A DNA stretch of 57,222 bases from Candidatus Nealsoniibacteriota bacterium (GTDB lineage Bacteria > Patescibacteriota > Minisyncoccia > Minisyncoccales > GWA2-38-27), in the NCBI GenBank assembly GCA_030617105.1, contig JAUWWC010000003.1:1-57222 (forward strand). Reading direction: 5' to 3'. Under the pieces are notes generated by a model. The model ran no database searches and was not told the origin of the DNA. It worked only from the letters and a program-made list of their open reading frames with translations. The stretch's first letter is position 1, and each line of letters starts with the position of its first letter. The translations under genes were made by a program, and so were the position numbers. Shown here one piece after another: positions 24,041 to 42,558 of this stretch.

Positions 24041-24067
24041 AAAACAGAGGCCCGTCCTCCGCAAAAG

Positions 24068-24144
24068 CTTGACAGATTTGAGAATATGCGATAAACTGTA
24101 AATATCGTGAAAAACTAAAATAGCAACTTAAAAATTTGAAAGGA
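24068..24144 (+). repeat. Promoter-leader repeat, copy 1
   Basis: A 77-bp segment differing at about one position from 25022-25098. It contains TTGACA (24069-24074), a 17-bp spacer, TAAACT (24092-24097) and a ~45-nt leader ending in the first bases of the Shine-Dalgarno. It drives the 90-aa gene. Confidence 0.9.
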
Positions 24145-24155
24145 GGTGCTTTACA

Positions 24156-24428
24156 ATGAATATTGTTCTTTATATCATCGCATTCGTTGTTATCCTTATC
24201 GTTTCTGTTTTGATAAATTCATGGGAGTACGGAAGTACGCGCAACCGACTTCTTGAACAAATCAAAAATAGTTACCAAGAATATAATGTCACTTCCGAAA
24301 CTTTCCATAATAACGACTATGTCTATGGTACTCGGTTTATCGCCACCTTAGTGAAAAAAAATGACCCAAATTGCAGAATTAATGTTGTCAACAGCAACGA
24401 TACAGGAATAAAGGAAATTTCTTTGTGA
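24156..24428 (+). CDS. 90-aa single-span membrane protein
   Basis: Not recognised. An N-terminal membrane segment (VLYIIAFVVILIVSVLI) is followed by ~65 polar residues. The unit is complete: a repeated promoter-leader, GGAGGTGCTTTACA before the ATG, and a strong hairpin terminator 6 nt past the stop. It lies convergent with the HicBA module and may be part of the same accessory patch. Confidence 0.7.
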   Translation: MNIVLYIIAFVVILIVSVLINSWEYGSTRNRLLEQIKNSYQEYNVTSETFHNNDYVYGTRFIATLVKKNDPNCRINVVNSNDTGIKEISL

Positions 24429-25015: not shown

Positions 25016-25021
25016 TAAAAA

Positions 25022-25098
25022 CTTGACAGATTTGAGAATATGCGATAAACTGTAAATATCGTGAAAAACTAAAATAGCAACTTTAAAATTTGAAAGGA
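25022..25098 (+). repeat. Promoter-leader repeat, copy 2
   Basis: Near-identical to 24068-24144. TTGACA (25023-25028), 17-bp spacer, TAAACT (25046-25051). It drives the 79-aa gene. Confidence 0.9.
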
Positions 25099-25103
25099 AA
25101 GAA

Positions 25104-25343
25104 ATGATGATTGAAGAACTTTACAAAATATCAAAAGTATTGTTTATGGGTTCATTCCCTACCGCGCTTGGGAGGATTGGGGTTGTTTGGCTTCTTTCCT
25201 GCTGGATTGTATGGATTATTGTATCAATAAGATACAAAAATCTAACGATTTCTACTACTGTGGGTCTGATTGGTGTCATAGGTTTTATCTCAGCAGTGCT
25301 AATATCTGTGTATATCAATCAGCCATTTACGTGGAAAACCTAA
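25104..25343 (+). CDS. 79-aa two-span membrane protein
   Basis: Not recognised. Two hydrophobic segments (IGVVWLLSCWIVWIIVSI and TVGLIGVIGFISAVLISVYI) separated by a short basic loop. Two adjacent ATGs follow AAAGGAAAGAA. The cargo is unrelated to the 90-aa protein although the promoter and leader are copies. A strong terminator closes the unit. Confidence 0.65.
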   Translation: MMIEELYKISKVLFMGSFPTALGRIGVVWLLSCWIVWIIVSIRYKNLTISTTVGLIGVIGFISAVLISVYINQPFTWKT

Positions 25344-37489: not shown

Positions 37490-37777
37490 TTACTCAATAA
37501 TTGCTAATATATCTTCTTCTTTAGCAATCAAATATTCTTTATCGCCGACCTTTATTTCATTTGGACCATATTTGGTAAATAAAACTTTGTCTCCTGGTTT
37601 TACTTCCAAAGGAATAACTTTTCCAGCTCTTTTTTGACCTGGGCCAACAGCAATCACCCGGCCTTGTTCAGGTCTTTCTTTCTCAGCTGTGTCTGGAAGC
37701 AAAATCCCAGCTTTTGTTTTTTCCTCCTCTTTTATCGGCTCAATTAATATATGATCAGATAATGGTTTAATGTTCAT
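37490..37777 (-). CDS. groS: Co-chaperonin GroES
   Basis: A 95-aa protein with IKPLSDHILIEP, the mobile loop EEKTKAGILLPDTA and GDKVLFTKYG. No Shine-Dalgarno is visible. No CIRCE (TTAGCACTC inverted repeat) is present upstream; the ~120-nt leader carries the ATTCG-rich repeat instead. Confidence 0.97.
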   Translation of the reverse strand: MNIKPLSDHILIEPIKEEEKTKAGILLPDTAEKERPEQGRVIAVGPGQKRAGKVIPLEVKPGDKVLFTKYGPNEIKVGDKEYLIAKEEDILAIIE

Positions 37778-37785
37778 AAAATTAT

Positions 37786-37867
37786 AATGCGAATCTACGA
37801 ATGATATACGAATGTTGCGAATAATTTATTCGCGGCATTCGCATTTAATTCGCGTCATTCGGATTAT
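37786..37867. repeat. ATTCG/CGAAT-rich inverted repeat in the groES leader
   Basis: Eight or more GAAT/ATTC-with-CG units. On the minus strand two 16-nt arms beginning CGAATG and ending CATTCG pair with only two mismatches, making a large hairpin in the 5' UTR. Confidence 0.65.
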
Positions 37868-37889
37868 GTTATATTTTTTAATATCTATC

Positions 37890-37917
37890 ATTTTACCCAC
37901 CCAAAGATATTTGTCAA
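37890..37917 (-). promoter_or_regulatory. groESL promoter
   Basis: TTGACA (37912-37917), 16-bp spacer, TAAAAT (37890-37895). A second TTGACA lies 11 bp further upstream. Confidence 0.6.
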
Positions 37918-37936
37918 GTCTTTGTCAAGCCCTATC

Positions 37937-37979
37937 AAAAAAACAGCCCCGAAATCAATTTATTTGATAACGGGGCCGC
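37937..37979 (-). terminator. Cassette 1 terminator
   Basis: GCCCCGTTATCA / TGATTTCGGGGC stem and seven T on the minus strand. About 33 nt are shared with the terminator at 39077-39118. Confidence 0.85.
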
Positions 37980-37987
37980 GTTCCTAT

Positions 37988-38293
37988 TTAAACAAGGCTT
38001 AAAAATAAAGCTCGCTCAAACTCTTCTAGGCTGCAATTGATCTTTACTTCCACTGGATCCGATATGTGAGAATCTATCGAGACTGAATTCTCTTGGTAAT
38101 CAATGGTAATAGTTATTTTTTCTTCTCCTAATTCATAAACAACTTCCTCTTTTTTGTTTGTTAAAACGTCCTTAAGCGCCAGTTTTGGGATGCTCCTGAA
38201 TTTTGTTTCGATACCCATGACGCAAAACCTAAAACGAATCATAGAGTCTATGTCAACACGTCGAGTTCCATTTTGTTGATCTCTTACTATCAT
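37988..38293 (-). CDS. 101-aa hypothetical protein (cassette 1 cargo)
   Basis: Not recognised. Soluble, beta-rich product starting MIVRDQQNGTRRVDIDSM, with a strand-like ITITIDYQENSVSIDS. The start at 38293 is chosen for AAAAGGAGATCAGAA before the ATG; a longer frame runs into the leader repeat. It is enclosed by a promoter-leader and terminator matching those of the cupin gene at 39132-39689, although the proteins are unrelated. Confidence 0.65.
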   Translation of the reverse strand: MIVRDQQNGTRRVDIDSMIRFRFCVMGIETKFRSIPKLALKDVLTNKKEEVVYELGEEKITITIDYQENSVSIDSHISDPVEVKINCSLEEFERALFLSLV

Positions 38294-38300
38294 TTCTGAT

Positions 38301-38391
38301 CTCCTTTTATTAAATTTTGAAATTACATTACATACAGCAACGCACTGCAATGTTTATACACTATCACACATCCCTGCTCCTGTCAAGCCCA
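38301..38391 (-). repeat. Promoter-leader repeat, cassette 1
   Basis: 91 bp matching 39697-39787 at about 83 positions. TTGACA, 17-bp spacer ending GTGTGA, -10 TAGTGT; the leader has an imperfect dyad GCAGTGCGTTGC and ends before AAAAGGAG. Its promoter half overlaps the 3' end of the protease gene. Confidence 0.9.
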
Positions 38392-38801
38392 GTTTGATTT
38401 TCGGGAGTAATTTCGATAGTACCTTTAGAATGTATAAATTTAACTCTAAACAAATTAAAAAATCCTTTTTGTCCTAAAATCCCAAATCCATGAGGGCTAA
38501 TCTCGTAAGAAAAACCAGCCATAATATTATAGCGCCAGCCACCAATCTCAAGGGTTAAATTATGAAGATAAACTTCAAACGGCTCTCCAGCTATCCCGCT
38601 GAATTCCATTTTCTTCCCAGAACGAATATCAATACCAAAAAGCTCTCCAATTTCCGCATTAAAGATATTAAAATCAGCTCCTGAATCAATTAATGCCTCA
38701 TATTTAATTATTCTTCCATTATATAAAAGCCCAATCGGAATGATTGGCTTTAATAATTCTGTGCCATCAGCTAATCTAAATTTCTTATAGCCAAAACGCA
38801 T
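38364..38801 (-). CDS. Retropepsin-like aspartyl protease
   Basis: A 145-aa clan AA protein with the active-site ALIDSGADFNIF, a flap-like region and the late hydrophobic-Gly element FGILGQKGFF. Such single-domain proteases probably work as dimers. The last residues (TGLDRSRDV and stop) are encoded by the promoter of cassette 1, so the native end may have been replaced. It follows the DUF5678 gene by 6 nt; this pairing suggests a shared function. Confidence 0.85.
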   Translation of the reverse strand: MRFGYKKFRLADGTELLKPIIPIGLLYNGRIIKYEALIDSGADFNIFNAEIGELFGIDIRSGKKMEFSGIAGEPFEVYLHNLTLEIGGWRYNIMAGFSYEISPHGFGILGQKGFFNLFRVKFIHSKGTIEITPENQTGLDRSRDV

Positions 38802-38807
38802 ATCAAT

Positions 38808-39020
38808 TTAAGAAATAAAAGAATTTCCCCCTACATAGGGTAAAACAGTAATGGGAACTTTAAAAAGAATTGGGCATTTATATCCTTCTTTTTTGGCCTT
38901 CTCTAAAGTTTCCTTGGCAGAGTCATCAAAAGAAATTACCTTTTTTTCGTCCTCACTAAGGGCCACCCATTTCCCTTTATATTTTTTAGCAATTTCTGTA
39001 AAATCAAGTATTTGTTCCAT
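38808..39020 (-). CDS. DUF5678-like small protein
   Basis: A 70-aa protein with YKGKWVALSEDEKKVISF and AKKEGYKCPILFKVP, the pattern of the DUF5678 family often found next to aspartyl proteases. Function unknown. A TTGACT-18-TAAAAT promoter lies just past cassette 2's terminator. Confidence 0.8.
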   Translation of the reverse strand: MEQILDFTEIAKKYKGKWVALSEDEKKVISFDDSAKETLEKAKKEGYKCPILFKVPITVLPYVGGNSFIS

Positions 39021-39076
39021 AATTTTATTTCATTTTAATTTTAACAAATATTAGAAGACAAAGTCAAGTACTATTC

Positions 39077-39118
39077 AAAAAAACAGCCCCGAAATCAATT
39101 TGTCTGATTTGAGGGCTT
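39077..39118 (-). terminator. Cassette 2 terminator
   Basis: AGCCCTCAAATCA / TGATTTCGGGGCT stem and seven T on the minus strand; shares its 3' arm and tail with 37937-37979. Confidence 0.85.
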
Positions 39119-39131
39119 ATTGCTTTTTAAG

Positions 39132-39689
39132 CTATTTAATCTTTAGCAATCCTCGCAATTCTGGGATAGACATTTTGTTATAGCCAGCTCTTAAAACAAA
39201 ACTCTGTCTTTCTACGTCAAGTTCCTCTCTTTCTTTTTTGCTCATTGATTCTTCAAATCCTAGGTCGCATCGGAAAAGTCCCTCTCTTATCAATTCACAT
39301 TTTTCTGTACACGCTGAGTAACCGGCCACAAGTTTATCCGTTTCATCTAAAACAATTTCATCTTCTTTCGACCAAGCAGGTATGCAAAAAACTAAAATTT
39401 TAGTTACCTCTCTTGGAATAAAATAATGAGCTGTATTGGGTGGAATAAGTATTAATGTTCCAGCTTTTATTTCATAAACGTTGGCTCCTATAACCAACTT
39501 CCCCTTGCCTTCAATGATAAAATAAAACTCAGTTGTAATTTTATGGTAATGAGAAACACCGGGAGCACTCATTGTAACTAAGGCTGTGCTTGCTTTGTCA
39601 AAATCTTGTTTTGAGCTTAATACTCTAATCTCCCCACAAATATCTTTTATTGGCTGAACTTTCTCAACAGATATCACAATCTCTTCCAT
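39132..39689 (-). CDS. Cupin-domain protein (cassette 2 cargo)
   Basis: A 185-aa protein. Residues ~35-110 form a cupin: GVSHYHKITTEFYFIIEG gives the His/Glu metal set and GTLILIPPNTAHYF the last His. The ~75 residues after it hold two cysteines (CTEKCE) and are unassigned. The substrate is unknown. AAGGAGATAAATA precedes the ATG. Promoter-leader and terminator match cassette 1. Confidence 0.8.
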   Translation of the reverse strand: MEEIVISVEKVQPIKDICGEIRVLSSKQDFDKASTALVTMSAPGVSHYHKITTEFYFIIEGKGKLVIGANVYEIKAGTLILIPPNTAHYFIPREVTKILVFCIPAWSKEDEIVLDETDKLVAGYSACTEKCELIREGLFRCDLGFEESMSKKEREELDVERQSFVLRAGYNKMSIPELRGLLKIK

Positions 39690-39696
39690 TATTTAT

Positions 39697-39787
39697 CTCC
39701 TTTTATTAAATTTTAAATTTACATTACATACAGCAACGCACTGCAATGTTTATATCCTATCACACATCCCCAGCCCTGTCAAGCCCA
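39697..39787 (-). repeat. Promoter-leader repeat, cassette 2
   Basis: 91 bp matching 38301-38391. TTGACA, 17-bp spacer, -10 TAGGAT; same leader dyad and AAAATTTAATAAAAGGAG end. Confidence 0.9.
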
Positions 39788-39801
39788 AGAAGCTAAGCTC
39801 T

Positions 39802-42483
39802 TTAGTTTTTAAAAAATCTTTTTCTTAAAAATTTGCCAGTGTATGATTTGGGATTTTTAGCTATTTCATATGGTGTTCCTTCGGCCACGATATATCCTCC
39901 TTTATCCCCTCCTTCAGGTCCGAGATCTATACACCAATCCGCGTTTTTAATAACATCTCCGTTGTGTTCCGAGCTTAAAATAGTATTTCCTTTATTAACT
40001 AACTCTCTTAAAACTTTAACCAATTTCTTAATATCATCTGGGTGAAGACCAGTTGTTGGCTCATCTAAAATGTATAATGTTTTGCCAAAGGATTTCCTGG
40101 AAAGCTCAGTTGCTAATTTTACTCTTTGGGCTTCACCTCCAGACAAAGAAGGAGCTGGCTGACCAAGCTGGATATATGATAAGCCAACTTGATTTAATGT
40201 TTTTAATTTAGAGTAAAGTCCAGGAATATTCTTGAAGAAATCCAATGCCTCTTCATTTGTCATTTCTAAAACTTCAGCAATATTTTTACCTTTATACTCA
40301 ATTTCAAGCGCCTCTTTATTATATCTCTTGCCTTTGCATTCCTTGCACTCAACATAAACATTTGGAAGAAAATACATTTCAACTTTAATCTGACCCTGAC
40401 CCTCACAGGCCTCGCATCTTCCTCCCTTAACATTGAAACTGAACTGACCAGGTAAATAACCTCTAACTCTAGCTTCCCTGGTTTTTGAAAAAAGCTCCCT
40501 TATATATGAAAAAGCGCCAGTGTAGGTTGCAGGATTAGAACGAGGAGTTCTGCCAATCGGTGACTGGTCAACTAAAACAACCTTGTTTAAGGATTCAATG
40601 CCTAAAATCTTCTTATGCTTTCCTGGTTCTTGTTTTGCATGATAAAACTTCTTAAGCAATGCCCTGGCTAAAATATCATTCATTAAAGAACTCTTGCCAG
40701 AACCAGAAACTCCAGTTATACAAACAAATTTACCCAAGGGAATTTTAACATCAATATTTTTAAGATTGTGCTCGGCTGCTCCTTTGATAGCTAAATAATT
40801 AGTCTTGGGTTTTTGGTCTGAACGGCCAATTTCTACTTTCTTCTTTCCAGATAAATATTGACCTGTTAAAGTTTTTGACTTGAGCAGCTGTTTAGGTGTC
40901 CCTTGAAAAATAACTCGGCCTCCATCTTTTCCGGCTCCGGGACCGATATCAATAATCATGTCAGATGAAATAATTATTTCGTACTCGTGCTCCACTATAA
41001 TTAGTGAGTTACCTAACTCCCTTAATTTTTTCAAACTTTCAATTAATCTTCCTTGGTCCCTGGGATGAAGACCAATTGAAGGTTCATCTAAAATGTATAA
41101 AACTCCTGTTAGTTTTGAACCAATTTGAGTAGCTAATCTTATCCTCTGTTCTTCTCCTCCAGCTAAAGTAGCAGCTTTCCTATCCAAAGTTAAATAATCA
41201 AGCCCAACATCAATAAGGAACTGGAGGCGAATAAGAATTTCTTTAACTATTGGCTGAGCAATTTTAGAAAACTCTTTCTCAAATAAAAGCCTTGTTTGAT
41301 TAATTGGCATCTCTACTATTTCATCAATTGACTTGCCCTCTACTTTCACTGCTAAAACTTCTGGTTTTAATCTTTTGCCCAAACATTTAGGGCATTGTCT
41401 TTTTACCATATACTGTTCAATCTCCTGACGAGTCCAGTCAGAATTAGTTTCATGATACTTTGTTTCAAGATTAGATATTACACCCTCAAAACTATTATCT
41501 CCATAAAGAACAATATTCAATATCTTTTTTGGTAAACTCTCAATCGGCTCATCTAAAGAAAAATCATATCTATCTGCCAAACCAGAGAGCTGATGTAAAG
41601 AACGAAAAGACATAATTGCTCCTTCAGCAATAGTTAGCTTTGGGTTTGGAATAAGCAATTCTGGATCAATTCTTAATTTCTCGCCCAAACCAGTACAAAC
41701 AGGACAAGCACCATAAGGACTATTGAAAGAGAAAAGACGTGGCTCTAATTCAGGAATAGAAATGTTGCATTTCTCGCAAGTAAAATTAGTGCTGAAAACT
41801 GAATCGTTGACAACAACGCTACCTTTGCCTATTTTTAAACCTATTTCCAAAGAATCTTTTAATCGCGATTTATCCAAATCTTTATTAATTATCAAACTAT
41901 CTATCACTACTTCAATATTATGATATGTCTTCGGCACCTCTCCAATAGCACAAATTACCCTATCGGTTCTGACTCTGACAAATCCTTTTCTTTTAATCTG
42001 TTCTAAAGAATAATTTGTTGGCGCTGAAATAATAATTTCTGTTTTCTTAACAAATTTCAGAATTTGTTCAACTATTTGATTAACCGTTTGTTGTGAAATT
42101 GGCTTTCCACACTTTGGACAATGTGGCTTTCCAGCCCTTGCAAATAAAAGACGGAGATAATCATAAATCTCCGTTATAGTGCCAACTGTAGAACGAGGGT
42201 TATGCCCTGCTTTTCTCTGGTCAATAGAAATAGCTGGACTAATTCTTTCAATCTTTTCAACATTTGGCTTATCCATTACTCCCAAGAACTGCCTGGCATA
42301 AGTAGATAAACTTTCAACATATCTTCTCTGACCCTCAGCGTATAGAGTATCAAAAGCCAAAGAACTCTTGCCAGAACCTGAAATTCCGGTAATCACTACT
42401 AATTTATTCCTGGGAATATCAACATCAACATTCTTCAAATTATGCACTCTTGCCCCCCGAATTTTAATAACATCCTTTCCCAT
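39802..42483 (-). CDS. uvrA: Excinuclease ABC subunit A
   Basis: An 893-aa dimeric ABC ATPase that detects DNA lesions. It has two Walker A motifs ([15 protein letters not shown] and [13 protein letters not shown]), signature motifs [12 protein letters not shown] and [12 protein letters not shown], and zinc modules CPKC, CEKC and CEACEGQG. The start at 42483 is preferred to an ATG 23 codons upstream because a TTGAAT/TATAAT promoter lies inside that extension, 9 nt before the chosen ATG. Confidence 0.97.
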
Positions 42484-42492
42484 AAGTAATCC

Positions 42493-42521
42493 ATTATACA
42501 TCAAAGCAGGAAAGAATTCAA
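42493..42521 (-). promoter_or_regulatory. uvrA promoter
   Basis: TTGAAT (42516-42521), 17-bp spacer, TATAAT (42493-42498); 9 nt to the ATG. Confidence 0.65.
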
Positions 42522-42558
42522 TATTGACTCTTTTAGGAAATTCTGATAACATATATTA

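Follow-up and report, generated by a model that had tools for sequence, protein, structure and literature searches.

The interval between uvrA and groES in the 57,222-nt window analysed here raises the question of how two unrelated genes came to lie between nearly identical expression signals. The window is one contig of a 543-kb draft genome (G000; 519 genes, 96% complete). Sequence at the end of the contig (56348-57222) recurs, with 75-93% identity, at other contig ends (C2, C7 and C15), and the assembly probably broke at this point because of this multi-copy family. All features of the interval (37878..39801) are on the minus strand, as is uvrA itself (39802-42552), and in that direction the order is uvrA, leader 2, a cupin gene, terminator 2, a DUF5678 gene, a retropepsin-like protease gene, leader 1, an orphan gene of 101 aa, terminator 1, groES, and groEL.

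Leader 1 (38291..38391, minus strand) was delimited by repeat detection and alignment and comprises a predicted promoter, a 5' UTR, the ribosome binding site (RBS) AAAGGAG, and an ATG. Its predicted promoter has the -35 element TTGACA (38386-38381), a 17-nt spacer, and the TG-extended -10 element TAGTGT (38363-38358). Leader 2 (39687..39787, minus strand), found by repeat detection, has the same layout with predicted -35 and -10 elements TTGACA and TAGGAT. The preliminary description had reported a common promoter-leader of 91 bp with about 8 mismatches. Alignment confirmed this and extended it to 101 nt with 11 mismatches (90/101 identical), the 91 bp being the part without the RBS-ATG spacer. 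Mismatches fall in the two spacers (-35/-10 and RBS-ATG), the -10 element, and the AT-rich UTR. A possible hairpin, predicted at 38353-38325 in leader 1 and at 39749-39721 in leader 2 (both minus strand), is covered by a run of 36 identical nucleotides. A BLAST search of the 543-kb genome with one leader returned the other copy at E = 1e-32 and no third copy with the leader core, and the similarity of the two leaders is therefore not due to chance. Folding energies showed the leader hairpin to be no more stable than shuffled sequences, so no RNA function is claimed for it. Comparison of the leader with known RNA families gave no Rfam match.

The downstream ends are also held in common. Terminator 2 (39075..39116, minus strand) was identified by repeat and folding prediction, and terminator 1 (37935..37977, minus strand) has its 3' half in common with it. 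Positions 37935-37968 and 39075-39108 are identical at 32/34 sites, in keeping with the terminator core of about 33 bp described previously, and the match extends to 46 nt at 89% identity up to the next CTTGAC. The common part consists of the loop, the 3' arm, and the T-tract, followed by TAG..CTTGAC; the 5' arms differ, yet each pairs with the same 3' arm. Predicted folding energies are -24.7 and -17.0 kcal/mol for terminators 1 and 2, with z-scores of -5.2 and -3.3 against shuffles. As the preliminary description had stated, each unit ends beside a CTTGAC promoter of the following gene, namely the predicted DUF5678 promoter after terminator 2 (39067-39039) and the native groES promoter after terminator 1 (37890..37917, minus strand; TTGACA-16-TAAAAT), which is conserved in two relatives, G003 and G001. 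Sequence inspection further revealed a 10-bp direct repeat, GGGCTTGACA, around the orphan unit (38381-38390 and 37923-37932, minus strand), one copy forming the start of leader 1 and the downstream copy lying directly before the groES promoter. The groES 5' UTR (37774-37872) is itself a repeat of about 100 bp, found at 90% identity on the opposite strand at C5:19936-20034.

The genes between these ends are as unrelated as had been proposed, there being no protein similarity between the 101-aa orphan (37988..38293, minus strand) and the 185-aa cupin (39132..39689, minus strand). The orphan, called as an ORF, had no protein-family match above cut-off and no match in viral contigs or phages, and 147 genomes of the order lacked a homolog; its single-sequence fold was unusable (pLDDT 47). 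The cupin domain (PF07883) comprises residues 1-105 and is followed by a C-terminal module of about 60 aa. This module (39132-39315) occurs as a stand-alone ORF in another genome, G075, at 63% identity, and the cupin gene is therefore considered a fusion. Neither protein matched a defence-system family; weak matches of this kind were limited to the protease (candidate family PDC-M52B) and a 358-aa protein of G001. Between the two units lie the DUF5678 gene (38808..39020, minus strand; PF18929) and the gene for the retropepsin-like aspartyl protease (38364..38801, minus strand; PF13650), which by synteny form a recurrent two-gene unit, present together in numerous genomes across the order. The last nine residues of the protease, TGLDRSRDV, are encoded by leader-1 DNA, and the proteins of relatives end near residue 135. 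The natural 3' end of the protease gene thus appears to be replaced by leader 1, and fusion of the leader into the end of this ORF is what a join would give. The unit ends have no long inverted repeats and no transposase was found among the ORFs of the interval, so that the marks of an IS or MITE are missing, and inspection of the ORFs adjoining the units revealed no phage structural genes.

Comparison of the same junction in relatives indicates that the uvrA-groES interval is an insertion hot spot. The junction is empty in G003, G011, and G013, with an overlap in G003 between the uvrA stop codon and the groES promoter. Elsewhere it is occupied by other genes: a single gene of about 254 aa with a HExxH-like stretch recognised by eye in G005, an AAA ATPase and dockerin-like fragments in G008, and a reversed 358-aa gene in G001, with apparent transposase parts at the two contig ends. 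The units of G000 have the layout by which a moron is recognised: an extra gene with its own predicted promoter and terminator that is missing from relatives at a conserved junction. The 30-nt leader hairpin was compared with all 1.48 million positions of G001, giving a best match of 22/30 and a next best of 20/30. The best match lies inside the 1.5-kb uvrA-groES interval, as leader of its 358-aa gene, making this gene a third cargo; the match is a single 30-nt alignment found after the fact, in an interval that represents about 0.2% of the genome. CTTGACA is preserved in this alignment, as is the GTGCGTTGC core, whose two flanks carry paired changes (CAG/CTG versus CGG/CCG); the fold of the G001 match was not significant. 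In G008, the terminator core is identical at 22/22 positions (loop, 3' arm, and T-tract) about 200 bp upstream of groES, behind a probable fourth cargo. Related ends thus seem to accompany other genes at this junction in at least one, and probably two, further species.

Searches for the leader beyond this junction were negative. When 247 genomes of the order were searched by DNA similarity, matches were limited to the AT-rich RBS tail. Exact patterns found nothing in other species, viral contigs, or phages, and a pattern search detected no common hairpin motif across relatives. A single widespread leader-terminator pair that would define a cassette family is not supported, as DNA searches place the leader in one genome only. 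Likewise, the boundary module TTAGAGGG...CCCTCTTTT plus TTGAC, abundant in G000, had 0 matches outside its own genome among 84,980 species genomes. As judged from these searches, the end sequences are each genome's own, and they also differ between clusters.

To describe the sharing of ends genome-wide, the 130-nt upstream regions of all genes were compared in G000, in G001 (same genus), and in three quarters of G003. Promoter-leader pairs had a -35-like motif in both members and the same register to the start codon, palindromic matches were excluded, and all genome-wide counts rest on ORFs from a simple calling script. G000 contained 78 in-register pairs across 46/519 genes. There were 99 pairs across 58 genes in G001, where part of the upstream similarity may represent intergenic repeats and not promoters, and 11 pairs across 17 genes in the G003 portion. 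Shuffled controls yielded 0-1 pairs even under looser criteria, and 300 kb of E. coli yielded 0. Nearly all pairs join non-paralogous genes, so that G000 shows one mark of mobile promoters, highly similar predicted promoter regions before non-homologous genes in one genome. End-sharing genes of G000 are small (median 117 aa versus 204). Pairs within 5 kb numbered 19/78 against 1.4 expected, all on the same strand, and the other 59/78 were distant.

Most end-sharing pairs have the upstream region alone in common. Both ends are common around different genes in the uvrA-groES pair, a four-gene array on contig C11, the pair C4 12552/13145, and, in G003, the adjacent 77- and 79-aa genes at C6:159892/160284. 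Within the window, an 82-bp leader repeat (24063..24144, plus strand) precedes a 90-aa gene (24156-24428) and is 97.6% identical to a copy (25017..25098, plus strand) before an unrelated 79-aa gene (25104-25343). As at uvrA-groES, an unrelated two-gene unit separates these units, here a HicA toxin gene and its partner on the other strand. The C11 array (L131, 1200-4000) consists of small unrelated genes of 63, 116, 71, and 132 aa separated by intergenic repeats of about 200 bp that are 84-95% identical; its layout resembles an integron array, but with predicted promoters and terminators. A boundary module, TTAGAGGGTTAATAGCCCTCTTTT plus TTGACA...GGGTGTATAATGTAGG, recurs in small-gene clusters on contigs C10 (L130/L140, 21400-25462) and C17 (L137, 3200-5500), and was in none of the other species genomes searched. 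The repeated module of C10 and C17 is a terminator plus the next promoter.

The small end-sharing genes are also sparsely represented in relatives. A homolog in G001 was present for 7/40 of them, compared to 40/81 of small genes with their own promoter and an unshared leader (p = 7e-4), and the corresponding values for the G003 part were 4/40 and 36/81 (p = 2e-4). The contrast grows when the promoter control is dropped. By this comparison of gene content, the end-sharing cargo is accessory. A 2.3-kb block on contig C17 (5748-8037, L137) is 99.8% identical to the end of G001 contig C24, which is anomalous because the two genomes are otherwise about 85% identical; it possibly reflects recent transfer or a binning error. 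The block runs to a contig end, and the gene identical in C17 and C24 was consequently dropped as evidence.

No dedicated capture machinery was found in G000. At 96% completeness, the genome encodes one tyrosine recombinase (PF00589), of Xer type, and most of the family likewise has one Xer-type enzyme per genome. The G000 enzyme scored 71.8 bits against the integron-integrase model TIGR02249, for which the cut-off is 265, and no integron integrase was detected in G000. Inspection by eye revealed no common core in the boundary repeats, which differ between clusters. Nor do the units resemble the mostly promoterless cassettes of integrons, read from a common promoter, as each has a TTGACA promoter-like sequence. 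Given the single Xer-type recombinase and end sequences that differ between clusters and genomes, general recombination on locally available ends fits better than a site-specific system.

We assign a probability of roughly 55% to recombinational reuse of expression ends around accessory single-gene units. At uvrA-groES, two accessory units and the DUF5678-protease unit between them would have been inserted just upstream of the groES promoter. In this lineage, a promoter-leader, and sometimes a terminator as well, would repeatedly have been joined to different small accessory genes, mostly between neighbours. The end sequences would be acted on by a general process, probably ordinary homologous recombination or gene conversion, and not by a site-specific integrase. 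Either a unit would be duplicated locally or incoming DNA would be anchored by matching ends, and in both routes the gene between the ends would then be replaced; the ends would presumably give newcomers immediate, insulated expression. The route, and its direction, are inferred: cargo may be exchanged between ends, which is favoured by pairs with both ends in common, the excess of neighbours, and the accessory nature of the cargo, or ends may be copied to new cargo, which is favoured by upstream-only sharing at a distance, and both processes may act. A broader proposal, that this small-genome lineage swaps accessory genes as complete expression cassettes whose own leaders and terminators serve as homology anchors for general recombination, is tentative, with odds well below even. 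The cassette-capture system suggested in the preliminary description is retained in part: matching ends around unrelated cargo, a third and a probable fourth cargo in relatives, empty sites, and many end-sharing, mostly unrelated small genes agree with it, while a single widespread leader-terminator pair is not supported and no dedicated machinery was found.

Several other explanations bear on the same observations. Promoter-leaders may have been copied around the genome while the cargo remained static, the terminator half having travelled with the next boundary module of terminator plus promoter. Such promoter mobility would account for the upstream-only sharing of most pairs, the predominance of distant pairs in G000, and the composition of the C10/C17 module; as a general cause it is possible if doubtful, given that both ends enclose one gene in the uvrA-groES pair, the C11 array, and the G003 pair, that neighbours on one strand are in strong excess, and that the cargo is accessory and no random draw of genes. 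A phage- or plasmid-like donor with moron-like genes, in which the end-sharing was done by the donor and not the host, seems rather unlikely. The leader has no match in viral contigs, the 101-aa protein lacks viral and phage matches, and phage structural genes do not adjoin the units, against which stand a DUF3307 membrane protein elsewhere that matches a PHROG termed moron/auxiliary, a repeat protein elsewhere that matches phage families, and archaeal viruses in which unrelated small genes have regulatory sequences in common (PMC11065993).

A single, unsystematic event, in which one unit was duplicated locally and the gene of one copy was later replaced, had been offered as the alternative to cassette capture. 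It agrees with a leader that the genome has only here, as two copies on one strand separated by 1.4 kb, but it is improbable, as relatives have related ends at this site with a third and probably a fourth cargo, and as the pattern recurs at many places elsewhere. An integron-like, site-specific system with an unrecognised recombination site would suit the C11 array of small unrelated genes between conserved intergenic repeats and the direct repeat on both sides of the orphan unit; the low-scoring Xer-type enzyme as sole tyrosine recombinase, the promoter-like sequence of each unit, and the variation of repeats between clusters and genomes make it very unlikely. Least credible of all is an assembly artefact or convergence of regulatory sites. 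Although the assembly is a draft, of which the window forms a single contig, the leader copies differ at 11/101 positions, so that reads can tell them apart, and the 89% identity spans the promoter spacer and UTR, beyond binding sites.

Recombinational reuse of ends would be of consequence for streamlined bacteria, which keep few genes and still need new ones. Imported genes would immediately receive a working promoter, ribosome site, and terminator from reused ends, and the match between ends would ease the next exchange. If expression signals are indeed exchanged in this manner, the outcome would be integron-like with neither integrase nor attC, the expression signals themselves being the exchange sites. 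The literature searched, coverage of which was incomplete, contained no description of variable genes in such a genome that have both promoter-leader and terminator in common.

Among known systems, mobile promoters, or promoter propagation in prokaryotes, were described by Matus-Garcia, Nijveen and van Passel in 2012, a study cited in PMC8049555, which reportedly concerned promoters alone. As here, near-identical promoter regions lie upstream of non-homologous genes in one genome; unlike mobile promoters, the present cases in several instances share 3' ends as well, the copies are locally clustered, and the cargo is accessory. Phage morons are single accessory genes with their own promoter and terminator between conserved genes, a layout that the uvrA-groES units have in common, whereas here the setting is a housekeeping junction (uvrA / groES-groEL) of a bacterial chromosome, and different units have the same ends. 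In integrons, conserved repeats separate the small variable genes of a cassette array, a layout also seen in C11, but here there is no integron integrase, the units have predicted promoters, and no common recombination site was recognised. In the archaeal rudivirus SIRV2, small unrelated early/anti-defence genes are clustered, each behind a highly similar regulatory sequence (PMC11065993), and the clusters of G000 resemble these; the differences are the virus genomes, the archaeal promoters, and shared terminators, which the section consulted does not describe. Anti-defence genes in archaeal viruses were listed via such shared ends (PMC11065993), and shared ends would similarly make it practical to catalogue the variable small genes of genomes such as this one.
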